Positions 16,648-24,977 of a stretch of DNA of 24,977 bases are shown here, in pieces (position 1 is the stretch's first letter; every line of letters starts with the position of its first letter). A program made the translations under genes and the position numbers. The stretch comes from a virus: the IMG/VR virus record IMGVR_UViG_3300021957_004192, positions 1 to 24,977 of that record; one strand, written 5' to 3'. The notes under the pieces are model-generated. The model had not been told where the DNA came from. It did no database searches and worked only from the letters and a program-made list of their open reading frames with translations.

Positions 16648-17850
16648 ATGAGCAATGACAAAAGTACTGACAGTTGTTCCTTTTGTAGTCAAACAAAAGA
16701 ATCTGTGAACAAACTGATCGTTGGAGAAAACGTATCTATTTGTTCTGACTGCGTTTTGTTGTGCCAGAATCTTATAGAAGAGGAATCAGAAACTGCCAGT
16801 CAACCAGATCCTAAGCCCAAAGTCATAGACCCGTATGCCGTTATGAGACATTTGGATAGATGGGTTGTGGGACAAAACTCAGCAAAACAAGTATTATCAA
16901 TTGCTATTTCAAATCATTACAAACGTGTTTACAATCCACCCCCAGTAGGATTAGATATTCATAAAGGCAATGTTCTTTTATTAGGTCCAACTGGTTGTGG
17001 TAAAACATTATTAGCAAAGTCAGTAGCAAAGTATTTAGATGTTCCTTTCATTGTGGCTGATGCTACGACACTCACAGAAGCAGGATATGTAGGTGATGAT
17101 GTAGAAAGCATGTTAAGTGTATTGTTAGCAAAGGCTGGCAATGACGTAGCAAAGGCAGAACGTGGCATCATTTTTATCGATGAAATAGACAAAGTAGCAC
17201 GTAAGAGTGAAAATGTCTCTATAACACGTGACGTGAGCGGAGAGGGCGTCCAACAAGCCCTTCTGAAGATTGTCGAGGGTACAATATGTCGAGTTGCAGA
17301 ACAAGGTAAACGTAAACACCCACAAGAACCTTTGATTGAAATTAACACTAAGAACATATTGTTTATTGCAGGCGGTGCCTTTGATGGATTGCAAGATGTA
17401 ATTAGAAACAGAACAACAGGCACTTCTCTTGGATTTGGGAGTGAACTTAGTACAAAAGATGCTGGATTCCTTACAGATGTTACACCAGATGATCTAATGA
17501 GTTTTGGTATGATACCAGAGTTTATAGGTCGCTTCCCTACAACTATTACTGTAGAAGAACTAACCAAACAAGAACTTATCAAAGTATTAACATCAGTTAA
17601 AAACAATTTTATTGATCAATATACCTACTTGTTTAGTATTGATGAGATTGATTTATCATTCACTGATGATGCTATTGAAGAAATGGTTATTAACTGTATC
17701 AACAGCAAAACTGGTGCACGAGGATTACAAACTGAAATAGAAAGAGTATTGATGCCGCATATGTTCAATGCTGGAAAATATAAAAAGAAAGGTATAACTG
17801 AACTAAATATAGATAAAGAATCAATCATTAACCCTAAAAAAATTGCATGA
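16648..17850 (+). CDS. clpX: ClpX, AAA+ unfoldase of the ClpXP protease
   Basis: The 400-residue protein is a complete ClpX. The N-terminal zinc domain has Cys10, Cys13, Cys32 and Cys35. Walker A is GPTGCGKT at 113-120 and Walker B FIDEID has Asp178 and Glu179. Pore loop 1 is GYVG at 146-149, pore loop 2 includes RKH at 222-224, and sensor 2 is GARG at 356-359. The ClpP-docking loop is LGF at 261-263 (IGF in E. coli), which fits the allowed pattern, so it should bind a ClpP. The length is close to E. coli ClpX (424). AAAAGGAAG precedes the start. It overlaps rpsU as ATGA. ClpP and ClpS are encoded in the same window. Confidence 0.96.
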   Translation: MSNDKSTDSCSFCSQTKESVNKLIVGENVSICSDCVLLCQNLIEEESETASQPDPKPKVIDPYAVMRHLDRWVVGQNSAKQVLSIAISNHYKRVYNPPPVGLDIHKGNVLLLGPTGCGKTLLAKSVAKYLDVPFIVADATTLTEAGYVGDDVESMLSVLLAKAGNDVAKAERGIIFIDEIDKVARKSENVSITRDVSGEGVQQALLKIVEGTICRVAEQGKRKHPQEPLIEINTKNILFIAGGAFDGLQDVIRNRTTGTSLGFGSELSTKDAGFLTDVTPDDLMSFGMIPEFIGRFPTTITVEELTKQELIKVLTSVKNNFIDQYTYLFSIDEIDLSFTDDAIEEMVINCINSKTGARGLQTEIERVLMPHMFNAGKYKKKGITELNIDKESIINPKKIA

Positions 17851-18137
17851 CATATAATAACAATCATAAAAAGAACTTCAACTCGAAAAAGAAACCATTT
17901 GTCAAACAACCGCTGGGCAACAAAGTAATTGTTGTTGACGGCAACTTTGATTTTGCACTCCGAAAATTTAAAAAGAAAGTTCAGAACTCTGGGTTGATGG
18001 ACGATATAAGAAAAAATGAATTCTTTGAGAAGCCAACTAATAAGAGAAAGATTAAAAAAGCAATGGCTGTCAAACGTGAAAAGAAAAGACAGTCACTTCA
18101 AAGACCACCACCTCGCACACCAGGAAATCGCTGGTAG
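17847..18137 (+). CDS. rpsU: Ribosomal protein bS21
   Basis: From residue about 35 the product follows bS21 closely: DGNFDFALRKFKKKVQNSGL, then RKNEFFEKPTNKRKIKKAMA and VKREKKR. The corresponding E. coli segments are [20 protein letters not shown] and [20 protein letters not shown]. At 96 residues it is longer than E. coli bS21 (71) because of a basic Asn/Lys-rich N-terminal extension. bS21 sits near the anti-Shine-Dalgarno end of 16S rRNA and affects initiation. Phage-encoded bS21 is known from marine phages, including pelagiphages. It is translationally coupled to clpX and should be expressed early. It could exchange into host ribosomes to favour phage messages. Confidence 0.93.
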   Translation: MTYNNNHKKNFNSKKKPFVKQPLGNKVIVVDGNFDFALRKFKKKVQNSGLMDDIRKNEFFEKPTNKRKIKKAMAVKREKKRQSLQRPPPRTPGNRW

Positions 18138-18196
18138 TCAATTGTGATAAATTGTAACATTTAGTACTTTTTTCATTTTACACCCCTAATAGTTAA

Positions 18197-18203
18197 GTAA
18201 ATA
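18197..18203 (+). promoter_or_regulatory. Weak late promoter candidate (GTAAATA)
   Basis: AAGTAAATAGAG lies 25 bases before the small lipoprotein gene. It departs from the usual form at the second base of the core. A CCTCGAGG palindrome (18213-18220) lies between it and the ribosome binding site. Confidence 0.3.
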
Positions 18204-18228
18204 GAGTTACAACCTCGAGGGGAAAGAA

Positions 18229-18402
18229 ATGAAAAAATTAATATTGCTAGTAAGTAGTATTATCATAACAGGATGCACTAGTTCAGGATACAATGGTTCG
18301 CATGAGTTCGATTGGATGCCTGCACAAGTAGTTTGGGAAAACAATATTAGAAACTGTAGAAGTGCAGACTACTGCCGAGCAGAAATGTTGTTTGTAAGAT
18401 AA
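18229..18402 (+). CDS. Small lipoprotein, 57 residues
   Basis: A strong ribosome binding site (GAGGGGAAAG) precedes MKKLILLVSSIIITGC, a textbook short lipoprotein signal with lipobox ITGC (Cys16) and Thr at +2. The mature peptide is only 42 residues with two further Cys (NCRSADYC) that could form a disulfide in the periplasm. Small phage lipoproteins can act as receptor-blocking exclusion factors (T5 Llp) or as outer-membrane spanin subunits. Neither is favoured by the sequence: it is not Pro-rich as many Rz1 proteins are, and no inner-membrane partner is adjacent. Confidence 0.75.
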   Translation: MKKLILLVSSIIITGCTSSGYNGSHEFDWMPAQVVWENNIRNCRSADYCRAEMLFVR

Positions 18403-18433
18403 TCTATTAAAAAACTAATTAGTGATTACAAAT

Positions 18434-18441
18434 GATAAATA
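18434..18441 (+). promoter_or_regulatory. Late promoter element (GATAAATA) of hsp20
   Basis: TGATAAATAG stands 85 bases before the hsp20 start. With T4 geometry transcription begins near 18447, at the base of the first leader hairpin. Confidence 0.6.
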
Positions 18442-18444
18442 GAT

Positions 18445-18491
18445 GTGTGAGAAGATAGGTTTCTGATCACACTGGATGCCGAAAGGGTCCA
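18445..18491 (+). promoter_or_regulatory. Structured 5' leader of hsp20: two adjacent hairpins
   Basis: Hairpin 1 pairs GTGTGA (18445-18450) with TCACAC (18467-18472). Hairpin 2 begins on the next base: TGGAT (18473-18477) pairs with GTCCA (18487-18491), with one G-T pair, and two more C-G pairs close a GAAA tetraloop. The absence of a spacer allows coaxial stacking. The ribosome binding site AAAGGAG is 22 bases further on. It may stabilise the message or act as a thermosensor or riboswitch-like leader. I could not match it to a known RNA family. Confidence 0.45.
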
Positions 18492-18526
18492 AACAATTAA
18501 TCTTGCTTTATTAAAGGAGAAACAAT

Positions 18527-18979
18527 ATGACAAGCAATATACCAACCTTCCGTCTAAATCACTTAGACATTCCAAACATTCACAAATTCGGAATCGGCTT
18601 CGATTCTATATTTGAGGATATTCATCGATTAGCATCAGTAACAGGAAAGGATAATTATCCCCCTTACAATGTTATCAAAATTGACGATGATCATTTCTTT
18701 ATTGAACTAGCACTTGCTGGTATCCCTAGAGATGCACTCGATATCGAGGTAGATCAAAATCAACTAACTATTTCTACAGAAAAAGCAGAATCTGATGAAG
18801 AACTAGAATACTTACACAAAGGTATTAGTCAGAGAGGCTTTAGTAGATCATTCACACTTGCCGATCACGTAGTTGTGAAAGGTGCTGATATGATTGATGG
18901 CGTCTTAAAGATTAGCCTAGAACGTCAACTTCCTGAAGAACTAAAACCCAGAAAGATTGACATTTCTTCTGCTAAATAG
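18527..18979 (+). CDS. Small heat shock protein, Hsp20 / IbpA type
   Basis: The 150-residue product is an alpha-crystallin-type holdase. The N-terminal arm (about 40 residues) includes FGIGFDSIFEDIHRL. The core domain spans about 45-140 with YPPYNVIKIDDDHFFIELAL, AGIPRDALDIEVDQNQLTIS, YLHKGISQRGFSRSFTLADH and the conserved A-x-x-x-x-G-V-L motif as ADMIDGVLKISL, followed by the C-terminal tail. Hsp20 genes are common in T4-like marine phages and probably keep virion proteins soluble during assembly. It has a late promoter and a strong ribosome binding site (AAAGGAG). Its stop TAG is part of the next late element. Confidence 0.93.
   Translation: MTSNIPTFRLNHLDIPNIHKFGIGFDSIFEDIHRLASVTGKDNYPPYNVIKIDDDHFFIELALAGIPRDALDIEVDQNQLTISTEKAESDEELEYLHKGISQRGFSRSFTLADHVVVKGADMIDGVLKISLERQLPEELKPRKIDISSAK
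18972..18978 (+). promoter_or_regulatory. Late promoter element (CTAAATA) of clpS, overlapping the hsp20 stop
   Basis: The codons GCT AAA TAG that end hsp20 spell the late core GCTAAATAG. The predicted start is near 18984, 64 bases before the clpS ATG. Confidence 0.5.
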
Positions 18980-18995
18980 TATTATAGTGGTATGT

Positions 18996-19019
18996 TGTGC
19001 GTAGTTTCGGCTACGCACA
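18996..19019 (+). terminator. Strong hairpin between hsp20 and clpS (terminator or leader structure)
   Basis: TGTGCGTAG pairs perfectly with CTACGCACA around a TTTCGG loop. What follows (CTTTCACTC) is a poor T tract, so termination may be partial. If the late element at 18972 is used, the hairpin would instead lie in the 5' leader of clpS. Confidence 0.5.
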
Positions 19020-19047
19020 CTTTCACTCACTTAAGAAAGGAATTAAT

Positions 19048-19362
19048 ATGTCACAAGAATTTGAAACAACAACTGAGCAAAGAATTCAACCTAATCTTGC
19101 TTTACAAGAGCCGCCATTGTATAAAGTAGTTTATCTTAATGATGAAGTAACCACAATGGAGTTTGTTGTAGATTCTTTGTGTGAATTTTTTGATTATAAT
19201 CCAGACACTGCATCTAATATCACCACTGATATTCATTCTAATGGTAGTGCTATCGTGGCAGTCTTGCCATATGAAATCGCAGAACAAAAAGGTATTGAGG
19301 TAACACTTGATGCACGTTCTAAAGGTTTCCCTTTACAAGTCAGAGTAGAAGCAGAGGCTTAA
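19048..19362 (+). CDS. clpS: ClpS, N-degron adaptor for Clp proteases
   Basis: The start at 19048 has AAAGGA eight bases upstream; the longer frame from a GTG at 18997 runs through a hairpin. The 104-residue product has a 22-residue flexible N-terminal extension and then the ClpS core: PPLYKVVYLNDEVTTMEFVV, a helix, IHSNGSAIVAVLPYEIAEQK and a final strand. The N-degron pocket residues of E. coli ClpS (Asn34, Asp35, Met40, His66) are matched by N-D-E, the Met in TTMEF and the His in DIHSNG. ClpS normally hands substrates with N-terminal Leu, Phe, Tyr or Trp to ClpA or ClpC, not ClpX. No clpA is seen here. Confidence 0.94.
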   Translation: MSQEFETTTEQRIQPNLALQEPPLYKVVYLNDEVTTMEFVVDSLCEFFDYNPDTASNITTDIHSNGSAIVAVLPYEIAEQKGIEVTLDARSKGFPLQVRVEAEA

Positions 19363-20090
19363 ACTGAAATAGTTATTCTTTTAGGATAAAACTGACTGTT
19401 GTTCCCTTCTGAAGGATTACTAACTACTTGTAGATCAGTCTTACGTGGTAGAAGCAGAGTTGCATCTACTGGCTTTGTGTAAGATCCATATATCCAATGA
19501 CACACTTTGCCTTCAGTATCTGAATTCAATACTGTGTCTAATGGTATTTGATCTCCAACATATGGAGGAACTTCTCCAAAATAACAATTATCATTCGGCA
19601 CAGCATTAGTGACAAGAACAATCTTTTTAACATCTAAATGTCGTTGGAGTTTGTCGATAGTCTTATGTAAGAAACTCATATCATCTAAACGATATTGATT
19701 ATACTTAAGATCATCTATAGAAATTGATGTTCCCGGCTCATGTGCATTCTCCCAACAGTTTGCACCTACAACTGCTACCCCATCAACAATAATAATGTTA
19801 TGATGTAAAAGAATGACATTAGGGAGTTTTTTTGTTATGTTTTGAATATCAGAGGTTCGCTGATTAATGTTTTGTAACGGACTACTGTCATACTCAAGTA
19901 AACCAGGAGTGTAAAACACTCCTTGATAGAATCTACTTAAATGTGACAGTACATTGACCATCGTTTGAACATCACTGCTTATGTTCCCACTCAGTATGCA
20001 GTATAAACTCGTAGCCTTATCTTCCCAATTGAAATTATCATTGGGTTCTAAGTTTAAATCGCTGATTATATCGAACCCGATATCGAGCAT
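19359..20090 (-). CDS. Metallophosphoesterase-like protein without metal ligands
   Basis: The 243-residue protein follows the calcineurin-like phosphoesterase plan, but each metal-binding motif is changed. DxH becomes ISDLNLE, GD becomes LSGNIS, and GNHE becomes YTPGLLEYD. The TH motif becomes LVTNAVPND, and GHTH becomes WIYGSYTK. The glycine-rich VAVVGANCW strand is kept. This suggests a folded but catalytically inactive protein with a structural or binding role. I recall similar proteins in T4-like cyanophages. It follows the Lys-rich membrane protein gene on the minus strand after six bases and should share its late promoter. Its stop overlaps the clpS stop tail to tail (TTAA). Confidence 0.72.
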   Translation of the reverse strand: MLDIGFDIISDLNLEPNDNFNWEDKATSLYCILSGNISSDVQTMVNVLSHLSRFYQGVFYTPGLLEYDSSPLQNINQRTSDIQNITKKLPNVILLHHNIIIVDGVAVVGANCWENAHEPGTSISIDDLKYNQYRLDDMSFLHKTIDKLQRHLDVKKIVLVTNAVPNDNCYFGEVPPYVGDQIPLDTVLNSDTEGKVCHWIYGSYTKPVDATLLLPRKTDLQVVSNPSEGNNSQFYPKRITISV

Positions 20091-20096
20091 AAAAGT

Positions 20097-20339
20097 TTAC
20101 TTCTTGGCTGTGGTAGTTTTTTTAGCAGTCTTTTTAGGTGCTGTTTTCTTAGCAACCGTTTTCTTAGGTGCCGCTTTTTTCTTAGGTGCAGGTTTTTTCT
20201 TTGCAACTTTTAAAGCAGGAGGTGTTCTTGGTGCTGATGGTTTCCCATGCCCACCTGATGCGGGTTTACTTTCGTCTTTCTTAATGAAACCGAAATAAAC
20301 AACTGCTACAGCAACTACTGCTATAATAATATATTCCAT
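20097..20339 (-). CDS. Small membrane-anchored protein with histone H1-like tail
   Basis: I chose the ATG at 20339 because GGAG stands seven bases upstream of it; the ATG at 20351 contains that GGAG. The 80-residue product has an N-terminal membrane helix (MEYIIIAVVAVAVVYFGF), a short Gly/Pro linker, and about 35 residues made mostly of Lys, Ala, Pro and Thr (KKKPAPKKKAAPKKTVAKK and similar). The tail resembles histone H1 C-terminal tails and would bind DNA, RNA or acidic lipids. A perfect late element precedes it. The low-complexity tail could allow slippage-driven length change. Confidence 0.75.
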   Translation of the reverse strand: MEYIIIAVVAVAVVYFGFIKKDESKPASGGHGKPSAPRTPPALKVAKKKPAPKKKAAPKKTVAKKTAPKKTAKKTTTAKK

Positions 20340-20369
20340 TTGTATCTCCATTGATTTATAATACTCTAG

Positions 20370-20377
20370 TATTTATA
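20370..20377 (-). promoter_or_regulatory. Perfect T4-type late promoter (TATAAATA, minus strand)
   Basis: On the minus strand TATAAATACT is the exact T4 late consensus. Transcription would begin near 20364, leaving a 25-base leader with GGAG before the ATG at 20339. It is divergent from the plus-strand element at 20407. Confidence 0.7.
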
Positions 20378-20406
20378 TAAAATAATAGTGGTCTGTATTT
20401 TCTTCA

Positions 20407-20413
20407 CTAAATA
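20407..20413 (+). promoter_or_regulatory. Late promoter element (CTAAATA) overlapped by a palindrome
   Basis: ACTAAATACC precedes the SprT-like gene. The perfect inverted repeat ATACCTTT-AAC-AAAGGTAT (20411-20429) shares the last three bases of the element and spans the predicted start near 20419, as an operator would. Confidence 0.55.
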
Positions 20414-20435
20414 CCTTTAACAAAGGTATCATAGC

Positions 20436-20939
20436 ATGAATAGATCAAAGGCTGAACGACTGCTAAAGCATTGGCTTAGTGAAGAATTACCTTCAATCTC
20501 TAAACAAAAGAAACAGCCATTTAGACCAACAATCCCAGAAATAAAAGAAGCATGGAAAGTACTTAACGTTCTATGTTTCAATAGTGAATTAAAAATGCCA
20601 GAATTCAGTTTACACTCTCGTAAATGGTGGTGGGCAATGTGTGTAAGCAACTCTGGAAGACCTATCAAATACAAAACAAAATCCAATTGTGAAATATGGT
20701 TAAGTGATAAATGGTTTTGCAGACAATGGTTTGTCGATACACTCGCACATGAAATGGCACATCAATATCAATGGGACATTGACGGAGTTAAACGTGTTAA
20801 GAAAGGTTGGGATCCTATCATGTCTCATGGTCCTACATTTTTTAAACATAGAGAAAAAATGAAATCATATGGACTTTATTTAAAAATTGCACACAAAAAT
20901 GACAAGTGGTTTCAATATCAATGTCTTAAAAAATGCTGA
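20436..20939 (+). CDS. SprT-like zinc metalloprotease
   Basis: The 167-residue product carries HEMAH at 105-109 (Glu as catalytic base, two His as zinc ligands) and a third likely ligand His131 in MSHGPTFF, the arrangement of SprT/Spartan-type proteases. The helix before it (WFVDTLAHEMAH) and the upstream LCFNSELKMPEF segment also match the family. No C-terminal zinc ribbon is obvious. Spartan digests proteins crosslinked to DNA. In a phage it could clear DNA or process proteins during packaging; this is inferred. The stop TGA overlaps the next late element. It has a late promoter with a palindrome. Confidence 0.85.
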   Translation: MNRSKAERLLKHWLSEELPSISKQKKQPFRPTIPEIKEAWKVLNVLCFNSELKMPEFSLHSRKWWWAMCVSNSGRPIKYKTKSNCEIWLSDKWFCRQWFVDTLAHEMAHQYQWDIDGVKRVKKGWDPIMSHGPTFFKHREKMKSYGLYLKIAHKNDKWFQYQCLKKC

Positions 20940-20945
20940 TAAATA
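20938..20945 (+). promoter_or_regulatory. Late promoter element (GATAAATA) with predicted start on the ATG
   Basis: TGATAAATAG includes the stop codon of the SprT-like gene. With T4 geometry the first transcribed base is about 20951, exactly the A of the next ATG, which implies a leaderless or nearly leaderless message. Confidence 0.55.
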
Positions 20946-20950
20946 GTATT

Positions 20951-22498
20951 ATGAATACGGATATTAGAAACACTTTAAACTTATTAGAATCTATACAGAT
21001 CGATGAATCTTCTCGTGGGTTATTGTATAGAGAAGTAGGCGATGCTTTCTTTAAAGGCGCAGATAGAAACAATCCTGAAGAAGAAATTCAATTCAAATCG
21101 GCTGAATATTTCCCAAGTATGCCAGGCGCATATGAAAGTGCAGAGGAGATGGAAGAAGCAGTTGCAAACCTCCCATATCCAAACATTAACTGGGTAAACG
21201 TTCCTAGAGCATCCAGAGCATTTGCAATTATTACATTTGACGTTACAGGCTCAAAAGACCCAATGTATTTTGGTAAATATTTTGCTGAGATTAAAGGCGA
21301 CATGGCTGGTAAATGGAATAACAAGATTGATGGCACATGGTTACTTAACAAAACAACAAGTCTCAAGGGAAGTTATTATAACTTAAAACCTGCTGATTTA
21401 TATCCACCAAATAGTACATTCAAAAAACCTTCAGATTTATACGCAACCCTTGCCCAAGATGCAAACAACAATGCGGCTGTTCCTAGAATTTTACCAGGAA
21501 TGAAAGAATTATTAGATGGCGCTTTGCCTACGTTTGACGATGTAGGACAAATGACTACTGCTATCAGAGATGATTTAGGCGAGTCTATTGGTCCTATTGC
21601 TCTTGTTCAAGGCATGATTACATCTGATGGTGCAGAGGCGGCTCGTAAAGACATTCTTGGAGATGATGGAACATATGAAGGCGCACACATTAACTTTCCA
21701 GCCGCAAAAAACAATGGGCTAGTTGACAGTTACTTATACATAGGTAAAGAGATAGAAATTGGCGTTTCTAGTAAAGGGGAGAAGGGTGCTAGTGCAAGTG
21801 TTAAGAACATCGCAGATGGTATTAAAGCCGCTAGAGAAAAAGGCTTAGACGATCTACTTGAAAAATATGCTGATCAAGTTGTTATTATTGAAGATATTGG
21901 AAGCATATCATCTATCGAGTTTCCATTAAAGTATGGACTTGAACAAGGCATTATCGATGAAAGCACAGCATATGCAATCAAAGACTTAATTAAGTCTGGT
22001 GCTGTCGAAACAGATAATCCTGGAGTATTAACACTACAAGCAGATATTAGAGCAAAACTTGATAACCCAAGATACAATGCTGGTTATCATGCGTTATCAG
22101 CACTTGCTAAAAGAGTATCAGCAAACATAAATTCTGATCCAGAGTTTGGTGAGGCATGTTTGAAATTCTTAAACACATCTCCTATTATACAATTACATTT
22201 GAATGGTAAGAGCAGTGATGATAATTATACTGTGACTGGATTTACTAGTAAATATCCACCAGACTTTAAAGGTACAGTTGGATTAGATGCGACTAAAGTT
22301 TATTCAGCAACAGGCACAAACGGACGTGTAAGTTTTAGTTACAGTGGTAGCAAAGAAGGTGTTCAAGCACCTGATGCTACTAAAAGAGAACTAAGAACTA
22401 AAGCGAAGGACCTTACGAGAGGCAGTAACAAAGACGTTACTGATATATTTAAGAAACAACAAGCACCAACAACTACTGTTGGTAGAGAAAAAAGATAA
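20951..22498 (+). CDS. Putative packaged (injected) protein with capsid-targeting-like N terminus
   Basis: I start at 20951 because the late element would exclude the in-frame ATG at 20933. The 515-residue product begins MNTDIRNTLNLLESIQIDES, with two possible L/I-x-E cleavage points before Ser, like the minus-strand protein at 210. The centre has SYLYIGKEIEIGVSSKGEKG, a pattern loosely like the E-x-x-x-K core of restriction-endonuclease folds. The rest is alpha/beta without a recognised family and ends in a basic disordered tail. It is the first gene of a late operon with a thermonuclease and a GNAT protein. Packaging and nuclease activity are both inferences. Confidence 0.65.
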   Translation: MNTDIRNTLNLLESIQIDESSRGLLYREVGDAFFKGADRNNPEEEIQFKSAEYFPSMPGAYESAEEMEEAVANLPYPNINWVNVPRASRAFAIITFDVTGSKDPMYFGKYFAEIKGDMAGKWNNKIDGTWLLNKTTSLKGSYYNLKPADLYPPNSTFKKPSDLYATLAQDANNNAAVPRILPGMKELLDGALPTFDDVGQMTTAIRDDLGESIGPIALVQGMITSDGAEAARKDILGDDGTYEGAHINFPAAKNNGLVDSYLYIGKEIEIGVSSKGEKGASASVKNIADGIKAAREKGLDDLLEKYADQVVIIEDIGSISSIEFPLKYGLEQGIIDESTAYAIKDLIKSGAVETDNPGVLTLQADIRAKLDNPRYNAGYHALSALAKRVSANINSDPEFGEACLKFLNTSPIIQLHLNGKSSDDNYTVTGFTSKYPPDFKGTVGLDATKVYSATGTNGRVSFSYSGSKEGVQAPDATKRELRTKAKDLTRGSNKDVTDIFKKQQAPTTTVGREKR

Positions 22499-22911
22499 TG
22501 GCTAAGAAGAAGAAATCAAAAACACCAATCAACGTACAGAATAAACAAGTAGAACCTTTTGTCTACCAGGCTACATTAGTTAAAGTAGTGGACGGAGACA
22601 CAATTGACGTAACACTAGACTTAGGATTTAATGTCTTGTTACACAATCAAAGAGTTAGACTTGCTGGAATCGATACACCAGAAAGCAGAACTAGAAACTT
22701 AGAGGAAAAGAAATTAGGTCTAGCCGCTAAAGAAAGACTTAAAGAGATATTAGCAGAACACAAGTTTAAGATACAATCATTAGGTAAAGGTAAGTACGGT
22801 AGAATCTTAGGTATCCCTCACACAGATGATGGACAAAATATTTGTAACATGTTAATAGAAGAAGGACACGCCAGAGAATACGACGGCGGCAAGAAGACTT
22901 CTTGGACTTAA
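22498..22911 (+). CDS. Staphylococcal-nuclease-like (thermonuclease) protein
   Basis: The 137-residue product is a compact SNase-fold nuclease. After a very basic start (AKKKKSKTP) it shows VVDGDTIDVTLDLGF with the Ca-binding Asp, RVRLAGIDTPESRTR with the catalytic Arg, Glu residues in NLEEKKLG that can supply the general base, and GKYGRILGI with the second Arg. NMLIEEGHAREYDGG ends the domain. No signal peptide is present, so it should act in the cytoplasm or inside the virion. It overlaps the upstream gene by one base and ends three bases before the GNAT gene. A role in host DNA breakdown is plausible. Confidence 0.9.
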   Translation: MAKKKKSKTPINVQNKQVEPFVYQATLVKVVDGDTIDVTLDLGFNVLLHNQRVRLAGIDTPESRTRNLEEKKLGLAAKERLKEILAEHKFKIQSLGKGKYGRILGIPHTDDGQNICNMLIEEGHAREYDGGKKTSWT

Positions 22912-22914
22912 ACA

Positions 22915-23613
22915 ATGAGAGCATCTGAGTTTTTGATCGAAGCACCGATAATGAGACCAGCAGGCTCATACGATCCAAATCCTAATGATGCTTATCATAC
23001 TGCTACTACCAATACTACCCCCAAATATGATGTAGATTATGAAAAAGATTACGGACCAGGTGAAAGTTTAGGCCGTATACCTAACATACAATCTCAGACA
23101 GAAGTAATACAGATGCCTGATGGAGATTTATATTTGTTTTATGTTAAAGTTTTACCACCAAAACCAGAACCAACAAAGTTTAAAAAGGCTATGGCTTGGA
23201 TTTTGCAAAATCCAAAAGCAAATCAAACTGGTCCTACTAAAGAATCAAATGTATTAGGATTTTTAAAATTAAAGCCTTATGAAGACGGATACAGAGTTGC
23301 TGGTGTAAGTATGGATCCAAGCATACAAGGACAAGGTAAAGCAATTAAATTGTATTTGGCGTTTACTGCTTGGAAAGGTATCCCTATATATTCCGATTAC
23401 ACACAAACACCGAGTGCTAAAAGAATGTGGCAAAGTATTGTAGGTCGTTATCCCAACCGAGTTGTTGCATATGATCAACAAAGTAAAAAAGAAATACCGT
23501 TAGATGACATAGATGACATGTACCAAGACGAGCCTGAAGGCTTTAGTGATTTACACCCAAGAGATGCACAGAAAGTTTTAAGTAGTTCTATATTATTTAA
23601 GTTGTTGCCATAA
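22915..23613 (+). CDS. GNAT-type acetyltransferase with capsid-targeting N terminus
   Basis: The N terminus MRASEFLIEA aligns closely with the T4 capsid targeting sequence MKTYQEFIAEA, with L-I-E before Ala as an ideal prohead-protease site. After a Pro/Asn-rich linker, residues about 70-200 form a GNAT domain: LGFLKLKPYEDGYRVAGVSM, then the acetyl-CoA loop DPSIQGQGKAIKLYLAF, and SDYTQTPSAKRMWQSIVGRY. The 232-residue protein is thus probably cleaved, packaged and injected to acetylate a host target early in infection, by analogy with T4 Alt. It is third in a late operon. The targeting assignment is the strongest of the four in this window. Confidence 0.75.
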   Translation: MRASEFLIEAPIMRPAGSYDPNPNDAYHTATTNTTPKYDVDYEKDYGPGESLGRIPNIQSQTEVIQMPDGDLYLFYVKVLPPKPEPTKFKKAMAWILQNPKANQTGPTKESNVLGFLKLKPYEDGYRVAGVSMDPSIQGQGKAIKLYLAFTAWKGIPIYSDYTQTPSAKRMWQSIVGRYPNRVVAYDQQSKKEIPLDDIDDMYQDEPEGFSDLHPRDAQKVLSSSILFKLLP

Positions 23614-23618
23614 AGCAA

Positions 23619-23625
23619 TTAAATA
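23619..23625 (+). promoter_or_regulatory. Late promoter element (TTAAATA)
   Basis: ATTAAATACTTGC is followed after five bases by the ATG at 23631, where T4 geometry also places the transcript start. No Shine-Dalgarno sequence is present. Confidence 0.45.
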
Positions 23626-23630
23626 CTTGC

Positions 23631-24524
23631 ATGTACAAAAAGATGCATGTAACATATTCTGGCGAAGACGATCTCACATTAACTTATAACATTAATGAAA
23701 CATCTATTGCTCAACGCTGGGCTACACTCTTAGATGAAGCAATTCAACAGTACACAATAGACGATCCTAAGAGATTGTACGGCTTTGATACGTTAGACAT
23801 AGAACGACAAAAGGCAGTTGATGCTATCAATCATTGTGTAGATGTCATCAATGAGTACAGTCCGGGCTTTGTAGAACGCAGAATGACGCCTGAATTGATA
23901 CAAGATGATCTTAACTATCTACATCATATCTTTGAAGTCTATCACGGAATGCTTAATGAGCCGCATGAGTTCTTCGTAGAAGCACCCAAAGAAGTACGAC
24001 AAGCATTAGGTCAATTAAACTTAGAAGTGCATAGATGCGAATCTATGGCAGAAGGAACAGTAAGAAAAATGTTACCTGGACATTTTGTTACATACTATGA
24101 TCAACCTAGAGGTCCAGGCATTAGAACATTAGAAGATACAGACTATGAACATTTTACTGAATTTGTTGAATTTGGAACTGTATACTTATTATATGTAGAG
24201 ATAGGAAAGACTCTACAAGATATGGCATTAGATGATGATGACCATATAGGAGATGAGGCATACAAACCATTTCGACATTACGCAAGTGATTTTATTATCA
24301 GATATTGGGGAATGACTGTTGAAAGTATTAATAAATATCATAGAATGTATAAAGAACACTATGATGAGAACAAAGAATTTTATGATAGTAGATACAATTA
24401 CAGTCATATATACAATAGACCAGGAAACATACCGTTAGCAAAGTTGCAAACACATTTGTCTCCTATAGAAGTAGTGACTGAAATACAGAAAAGACAATTT
24501 GTAAGTTCGGTCAAATTAACATAA
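23631..24524 (+). CDS. Conserved phage protein of unknown function
   Basis: The 297-residue product starts at 23631, or at the in-frame ATG at 23643 if transcription begins at the first ATG. It has a beta-rich N terminus (MHVTYSGEDDLTLTYNINET) and is then largely helical and acidic with many aromatic residues: FERQ-like helix LDIERQKAVDAINHCVDVIN, LNYLHHIFEVYHGML, FVEFGTVYLLYVEIGKTLQD and YKPFRHYASDFIIRYWGMT. No catalytic motif is obvious. The pattern looks like a conserved structural-module protein of T4-like marine phages, but I cannot name it. Confidence 0.78.
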   Translation: MYKKMHVTYSGEDDLTLTYNINETSIAQRWATLLDEAIQQYTIDDPKRLYGFDTLDIERQKAVDAINHCVDVINEYSPGFVERRMTPELIQDDLNYLHHIFEVYHGMLNEPHEFFVEAPKEVRQALGQLNLEVHRCESMAEGTVRKMLPGHFVTYYDQPRGPGIRTLEDTDYEHFTEFVEFGTVYLLYVEIGKTLQDMALDDDDHIGDEAYKPFRHYASDFIIRYWGMTVESINKYHRMYKEHYDENKEFYDSRYNYSHIYNRPGNIPLAKLQTHLSPIEVVTEIQKRQFVSSVKLT

Positions 24525-24533
24525 CCAAAAGTG

Positions 24534-24562
24534 TTGCATATAATAGATATTACCTGTATAAT
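24534..24562 (+). promoter_or_regulatory. Early sigma70-type promoter of clpP
   Basis: TTGCAT at 24534-24539 and TATAAT at 24557-24562 are separated by 17 bases. The leader is about 29 bases and carries AGAGGAAA before the ATG. Confidence 0.9.
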
Positions 24563-24597
24563 GCATACTTTAAGAAACATAATTTAGAGGAAATTTT

Positions 24598-24977
24598 ATG
24601 GCACTAGTACCAATGGTTTTAGAACAAACAAGTCGTGGTGAACGTAGTTACGACATTTATAGTAGATTGCTACGTGATCGTGTGATCTTACTAGAAGGTG
24701 AAGTACATGATACTATGGCTAATCTAATCGTAGCACAGTTGCTATACCTAGAAAGTGAGAACAGTGAAGCAGACATTTCTCTTTACATCAACTCGCCAGG
24801 TGGTAGTGTAACAGCAGGTATGGCTATCTATGATACTATGCAATTTATCAAGCCAGACATCAATACGATTGTTATGGGACAAGCCGCATCAATGGGCAGT
24901 CTGTTAGCACAAGCCGGTACTGCTGGTAAACGTAAAATGCTTCCACGTGCTAGACACATGATTCATCAGCCTTCAGG
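24598..24977 (+). CDS. clpP: ClpP protease subunit (3' end beyond window)
   Basis: The first 126 codons are a clear Clp[21 protein letters not shown] with the N-terminal loop, [33 protein letters not shown] forming the oxyanion-hole region, the nucleophile Ser98 in MGQAASMGS and His123 in MIHQPSG. The catalytic Asp would lie past the window. The mature-type N terminus begins almost at once, so little or no propeptide is present. With ClpX carrying an intact docking loop and ClpS nearby, the phage can in principle build its own ClpXP. It has its own early promoter, separate from clpX. Confidence 0.96.

Follow-up and report, generated by a model that had tools for sequence, protein, structure and literature searches.

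Phage proteins that are injected into the host cell are hard to spot, being mutually unrelated and with few of known function. A gene at positions 22915-23613 of a 24,977-nucleotide stretch of viral DNA (IMG/VR record IMGVR_UViG_3300021957_004192; hereafter the window) raises the question of whether such proteins bear a common address. Its product, P0001, begins with MRASEFLIEAPIMRPAGS. An earlier note, made from the sequence alone, had read this start as nearly the capsid targeting sequence (CTS) of phage T4, with an L-I-E cleavage site before Ala, joined by a disordered linker to a GNAT domain.

The P0001 gene and its surroundings

The reading frame 22915-23613 (+) is open throughout, and the gene follows that of an SNase-family nuclease after a gap of 3 bp, in a run that looks operon-like. 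The features of the run, and the grounds on which they were assigned, are listed below.

20951-22498 (+): 515/521-aa protein with a probable second-type leader; two genes upstream of P0001 (8 homologs)
20951-21007 (+): second-type leader MNTDIRNTLNLLESIQIDE (homolog comparison)
22498-22911 (+): SNase-family nuclease, between both leader genes, own leader absent (Pfam)
22915-23613 (+): P0001, leader-tagged GNAT-like protein of 232 aa (open ORF; family match; model)
22915-22941 (+): N-terminal leader MRASEFLIE, residues 1-9 (motif statistics; T4 comparison)
between bases 22941 and 22942 (+): predicted gp21-type cut after E9 (motif statistics; T4 comparison)
22942-23094 (+): linker, residues 10-60, mostly low-confidence (AlphaFold pLDDT)
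23095-23454 (+): GNAT-like domain, residues 61-180 (family match; model; weak fold matches to NAT_SF/GNAT)
23326-23343 (+): QGQGKA, GNAT motif A (acetyl-CoA pyrophosphate loop), residues 138-143 (sequence; family alignment)
23631-24524 (+): 297-aa protein, next in the same run

PADLOC, applied to the neighbourhood, returned an SNase match for the neighbouring gene and nothing else. The T4-type head genes gp21 and gp23 are absent within the 25-kb window, which is a fragment. A phage-encoded Clp set occupies window positions 16648-24977:

16648-17850: ClpX
17847-18137: bS21-like protein
18527-18979: HSP20
18997-19362: ClpS
from 24598: ClpP, running past the window end

The same set is present in the cultured phage PA5oct, with which the window has ClpX-bS21-HSP20-ClpS-ClpP and, besides these, an RNaseH block in common.

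The leader is a motif of amino acids that ends at a cleavage-type site

Concerning the leader, the likeness to T4 was borne out. T4 ipII and ipIII (NC_000866) begin with MKTYQEFIAEA, which shares with P0001 the form M-[R/K]-x-x-(x)-E-F-[I/L]-x-E followed by A; ipI begins with MKTFKEFTSTTTPVSTITEA and has its site further on (MKTFKEFTSTTTPVSTITE/A, the slash marking the boundary here and below). T4 leaders are removed by gp21 (PMC5694885), and in IPIII the first 10 residues are enough for incorporation, with residues 8 and 10 controlling processing (PMC9026906). The proposed L-I-E site before Ala also held, as MRASEFLIE/A, with conservation ending at E9. The site itself ends at residue 9, and the mature N terminus would therefore be A10; the peptide APIMRPAGS begins at residue 10, not at residue 11, where the earlier note had placed it.

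A degenerate DNA pattern for MRAxEF[IL]xE gave at least 120 matches in IMG/VR against 1 for a codon-scrambled control, and a search of 22 large records found the tag 57 times and the reversed pattern 0 times. The first scan had selected on ATG, and occurrences other than these seeds were therefore counted apart. In the fetched DNA of related phages, RA.[ED]F[ILVMF].E occurred 36 times outside the seeds, every time at a start codon (32 ATG, 3 GTG and 1 TTG) and never internally. Several synonymous codons are used at A3, E5, F6, I7 and E9, which indicates that selection acts on the protein; a reading of the leader as a translation signal was ruled out by these freely varying codons. A tblastn search with the N-terminal 25 residues gave chance matches only.

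The boundary of the motif was examined in 91 cluster representatives. Information, partly set by the search pattern at positions 1-3, 5-7 and 9, came close to 4 bits for residues 5, 6 and 9 and was less at 4 and 8, and it fell from ~4.2 bits at position 9 to ~0.5 at position 10 and beyond. Among 83 non-seed MRAxEF starts, for which E9 was not required by the selection, 53 had E9. Starts that lacked E9 had [ILVMF]xE at residues 8-24 in 13 of 27 cases, compared to 4-6 in control windows; the difference is suggestive, and sites so displaced resemble that of T4 ipI. We also considered that LxE sites might merely be common near N termini. This was rejected, as tagged proteins with E9 had further sites at residues 8-24 in 33 of 264 cases, compared to 39-57 in control windows. 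Judged by these sequence statistics, the leader is a motif of amino acids that is portable, restricted to start codons and closed by an LxE-type site.

The leader is carried by many unrelated proteins

The earlier note had proposed looking for the same motif at other N termini of the genome. Within the window the strict tag was found on the P0001 gene only, whereas in related phages it is present on many proteins. We counted 285 distinct tagged proteins, falling into at least 33 groups that share no detectable similarity beyond the leader. When 75 representatives were compared with Pfam and PHROGs, GNAT was found in 10, T7-0.7-like kinase in 8, GH19 in 5 and Kinase-PolyVal in 3, along with single cases of an ADP-ribosyltransferase (ADPrib_exo_Tox), an amidoligase, an M48 peptidase and a tail lysozyme. 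Peptidoglycan hydrolases are among the tagged proteins, and the tag alone therefore does not imply host takeover. The leader is a family-wide address tag and is not peculiar to P0001, and this is the larger finding.

Leaders are exchanged within protein families. DUF6267 proteins begin with MRAFEFLTE in some phages and with the alternative MRLLELLE(A) in others, and in the cyanophages P-TIM40 and S-H9-1 they have no leader and start with MAKNTHLEH. A cytidyltransferase of P-TIM40 (AJK27651, L336 4177-5250) begins with MRFLDFIKEA followed by a basic stretch, both of which are absent from the P-HM2 and S-H9-1 counterparts; on this comparison of sequences the leader is a natural gain or loss.

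Most frequent among the tagged proteins is a family of ~125 aa (YRFGVAIAGAKG / YDRTYELNRVMMA), often encoded in tandem pairs (for example L094 2163-2540 (-), L002-L121), for which no Pfam, PHROG or cultured homolog was found. Some tagged proteins are multidomain: L269 2935-4761 joins a GNAT to a polyvalent/T7-0.7-like kinase, and L225 3654-5660 a GNAT to a GH19 chitinase/endolysin.

The GNAT-like domain of P0001

The assignment of a GNAT domain stood as a family match, and a remote one. P0001 alone had no match in Pfam; against PHROGs it matched phrog_3307 (E=0.001), and in single-sequence phmmer searches it matched a phage GNAT family down to E=1e-4, the members of which match Pfam Acetyltransf_1/_7. 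QGQGKA agrees with GNAT motif A (Q/R-x-x-G-x-G/A), which family members have as [QR]Gx[GN]xA, and P0001 also keeps the region of motif B, QT...W. Searches with full-length P0001 in IMG/VR and cultured phages found no close relatives, and a family profile was built instead. The profile, made from P0001 and two relatives from tagged loci, found 14 GNAT-like ORFs, of which 9 had the strict tag and 4 near variants. Two tag-blind scans with GNAT domains from which the leader had been removed returned 160 loci. The strict leader was present on 49 of the 109 distinct untruncated GNATs, and many of the others bear variants such as MRSQEFIRE, MRINEIITE and MKISEI. Cultured homologs of the tagged GNATs and of the 126-aa proteins were not found.

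An AlphaFold model from an 8-sequence alignment was poor and was replaced by one from 65 sequences. In the latter, residues 112-180 had a pLDDT of ~90 and a GNAT-like order of strands and helices, and much of residues 1-60 was of low confidence. For the linker, which the note had called disordered, pLDDT was below 50 at residues 1-28, 34-42 and 52-56; the model is compatible with disorder in these segments. Fold searches with the model gave weak matches to NAT_SF and GNAT proteins, none at E<0.001.

A second leader type

The 521-aa protein encoded upstream of the nuclease had no match in PDB sequences, Pfam or PHROG. A block EIGxSSKGEKGAxASVKNIADG is invariant in its family, and in 8 of 8 homologs the leader, though its length varies, closes with [LI]xE and is followed at once by a conserved [SA]RGLLYR block (SRGLLYR). 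The presence of this ending in all 8 homologs suggests that a second head-targeted protein is encoded in the run of P0001. The protein may be packaged and is possibly nuclease-like. A second type of leader, of a form such as MR[DN][LI]IxL[LI]E, coexists with MRAxEF[IL]xE. One of its carriers is an Fe/Mn superoxide dismutase-like phage protein (L039 7895-8446 (-)), which begins with MRDIITLLE. The PA5oct homolog of this dismutase (172979-173527, 37% identity) is positive in ESI-MS/MS, and dismutases of the L039/PA5oct type are possibly packaged in the virion.

Carrier phages and their head machinery

The phages that carry the tag are uncultivated T4-like jumbo phages with gp20-gp21-gp22-gp23, in a cassette ordered gp20, small core proteins, gp21, gp22 and gp23. 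Their gp23 precursors have LxE before the mature part (...QLLAE/SSAGTT, ...YLKE/NASAG and ...YLRE/NASSG). The gp21 family PF03420 was detected in 7 of 7 tagged records of >=190 kb in a first set and in 9 of 10 in a second. It was not detected in G062 (262 kb, tagged), and in G052 (236 kb), which has the 521-aa gene, neither the strict tag nor gp21 was detected. The 521-aa protein of the window is 60-66% identical, and its UvdE 54-56% identical, to those of loci including one in G053, a tagged, gp21-bearing record of 320 kb; a ClpP match is common to the window and the same set of loci. These shared genes place the phage of the window close to the tag carriers.

Three records (G057, G058 and G059, with loci L299, L298 and L267) lack the strict tag, and at least L267 and L298 have MRINEIITE on the same GNAT. 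Of the three, G059 has gp21, which went undetected in G057 and G058; it may be that leader and protease vary together.

Leader-like starts in the cultured phage PA5oct

PA5oct and its relatives (Arenbergviridae) resemble the tag carriers in their T4-like gp20-gp23 cassette, their Clp/bS21/HSP20 block and the leader-like starts of virion proteins. They differ in that the leader is a variant, MK[IL]xx[DE][IF]...E, and in that a GNAT of the P0001 family was not found in PA5oct. Leader-like starts occur in 7 annotated PA5oct CDSs, and 5 of the 7 are labelled 'structural protein' by ESI-MS/MS, compared to ~94 of 442 (~21%) overall, a mark that also falls on enzymes such as DNA ligase, perhaps contaminants. 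The starts of the five are MKINDIITE, MKLFEVFTLYE, MKIKDILVE, MRLNEINLIE and MKILEFNLTE. The enrichment (hypergeometric p ~0.006) is indicative, the pattern having been picked after some of the MS-positive proteins were known.

Proposed delivery of P0001 and alternative explanations

Taking these results together, P0001 is quite probably a virion-delivered acetyltransferase, with a CTS-type leader, a gp21 cut and an injected GNAT. In the proposed sequence of events, MRASEFLIE would carry P0001 into the core of the assembling prohead, as the CTS does in T4. A gp21-type (S77) protease would cut after E9, leaving a mature protein that starts with APIMRPAGS. The freed enzyme would remain beside the DNA in the head and be ejected into the cell at infection. 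There, before phage gene expression begins, the predicted GNAT would most likely acetylate a host protein (RNA polymerase, the ribosome or a defence factor). Packaging of leader-tagged proteins as a class is well supported on comparative grounds; for P0001 itself, we infer packaging, cleavage, injection, catalysis and target.

The leader may be genuine and the domain do something else, acting as a small-molecule acetyltransferase or as an anti-defence binding decoy like T4 IPI. The P0001 domain is very divergent, and the T4 internal proteins are restriction inhibitors rather than enzymes. Against this, P0001 retains the acetyl-CoA loop QGQGKA and the motif B region, and members of its family match Pfam GNAT models; we consider such a function possible and rather unlikely. 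It is improbable that P0001 is targeted to the head and cut there, yet acts within the head or in assembly, by acetylating core or capsid or in DNA packing, without being injected. The gp67/gp68 core proteins of tag-carrying phages do have related leaders, and some T4 core proteins are degraded and not injected (PMC5694885), but the T4 cargoes with a CTS, IPI-III and Alt, are injected, and GNATs, kinases and ADP-ribosyltransferases are host-directed classes in phages.

Portability and restriction to starts, taken alone, leave the destination of the proteins undefined, and the motif could in principle be a signal for localisation or stability unrelated to the head, such as an address to a phage compartment or a degron. 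The closeness of the leader to that of T4 ipII/ipIII, the LxE boundary at E9, the LxE in gp23, the occurrence of gp21 in nearly all large tagged records and the structural annotation of leader-like PA5oct proteins all speak against a signal of this kind, and we hold it to be very improbable. That one N terminus resembles a CTS by coincidence would accord with the single strict tag in the 25-kb window, but is contradicted by all the specificity and portability tests; there is hardly any likelihood of it.

Comparison with known delivery systems

Virion delivery of P0001, the reading we prefer, would place it in a variant of the T4 CTS system. As in IPI, IPII, IPIII and the leader of Alt, the N-terminal leader has 9-10 residues, with a basic residue 2 and E-F-[I/L]-x-E before the scissile bond; a small residue follows the cut, the cargo is diverse, and the head genes of related tagged phages are T4-like, including the S77 protease. 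Unlike in T4, the leader is one residue shorter and R2-A3 are fixed, it heads scores of proteins, mostly enzymes and unrelated to one another, in uncultivated T4-like jumbo phages, and a second leader type coexists with it. The new element is the shared address tag, one leader for a large effector repertoire. No description of MRAxEF[IL]xE was found in the literature searched, most subscription papers and preprints lying outside it.

Packaging and injection have been predicted for GNATs inside polyvalent proteins (Iyer et al. 2017, PMC5512222). The tagged proteins resemble polyvalent proteins in their GNAT, ART, kinase and peptidase classes, some of them fused (L269, L225). Polyvalent proteins combine at least two disparate domains; P0001 has one recognisable domain, a GNAT, and some of its tagged relatives have more than one. 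In contrast to that study (PMC5512222), the packaging address itself is identified here. Jumbo-phage GNATs have also been proposed to work like phiKMV Rac (PMC7824862), a phage host-takeover enzyme of the GNAT family; Rac, which we liken to P0001 by description and not by sequence, is an early product synthesised inside the infected host, and a packaging leader is unreported for it (PMC7552054).

It seems reasonably likely that uncultivated T4-like jumbo phages of a large group load dozens of unrelated enzymes into the head, among them acetyltransferases, kinases and ADP-ribosyltransferases, by means of an interchangeable MRAxEF[IL]xE leader and a second type, with a delivered repertoire that can be read from sequence alone. 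Should the leader prove to be a packaging address, candidate injected effectors of uncultured giant phages could be listed by searching for it, and virion proteomics on one isolate could test which proteins enter with the DNA. P0001, if delivered as proposed, would clearly exemplify acetylation by an enzyme brought in with the virion, a counterpart of the ADP-ribosylation by T4 Alt.
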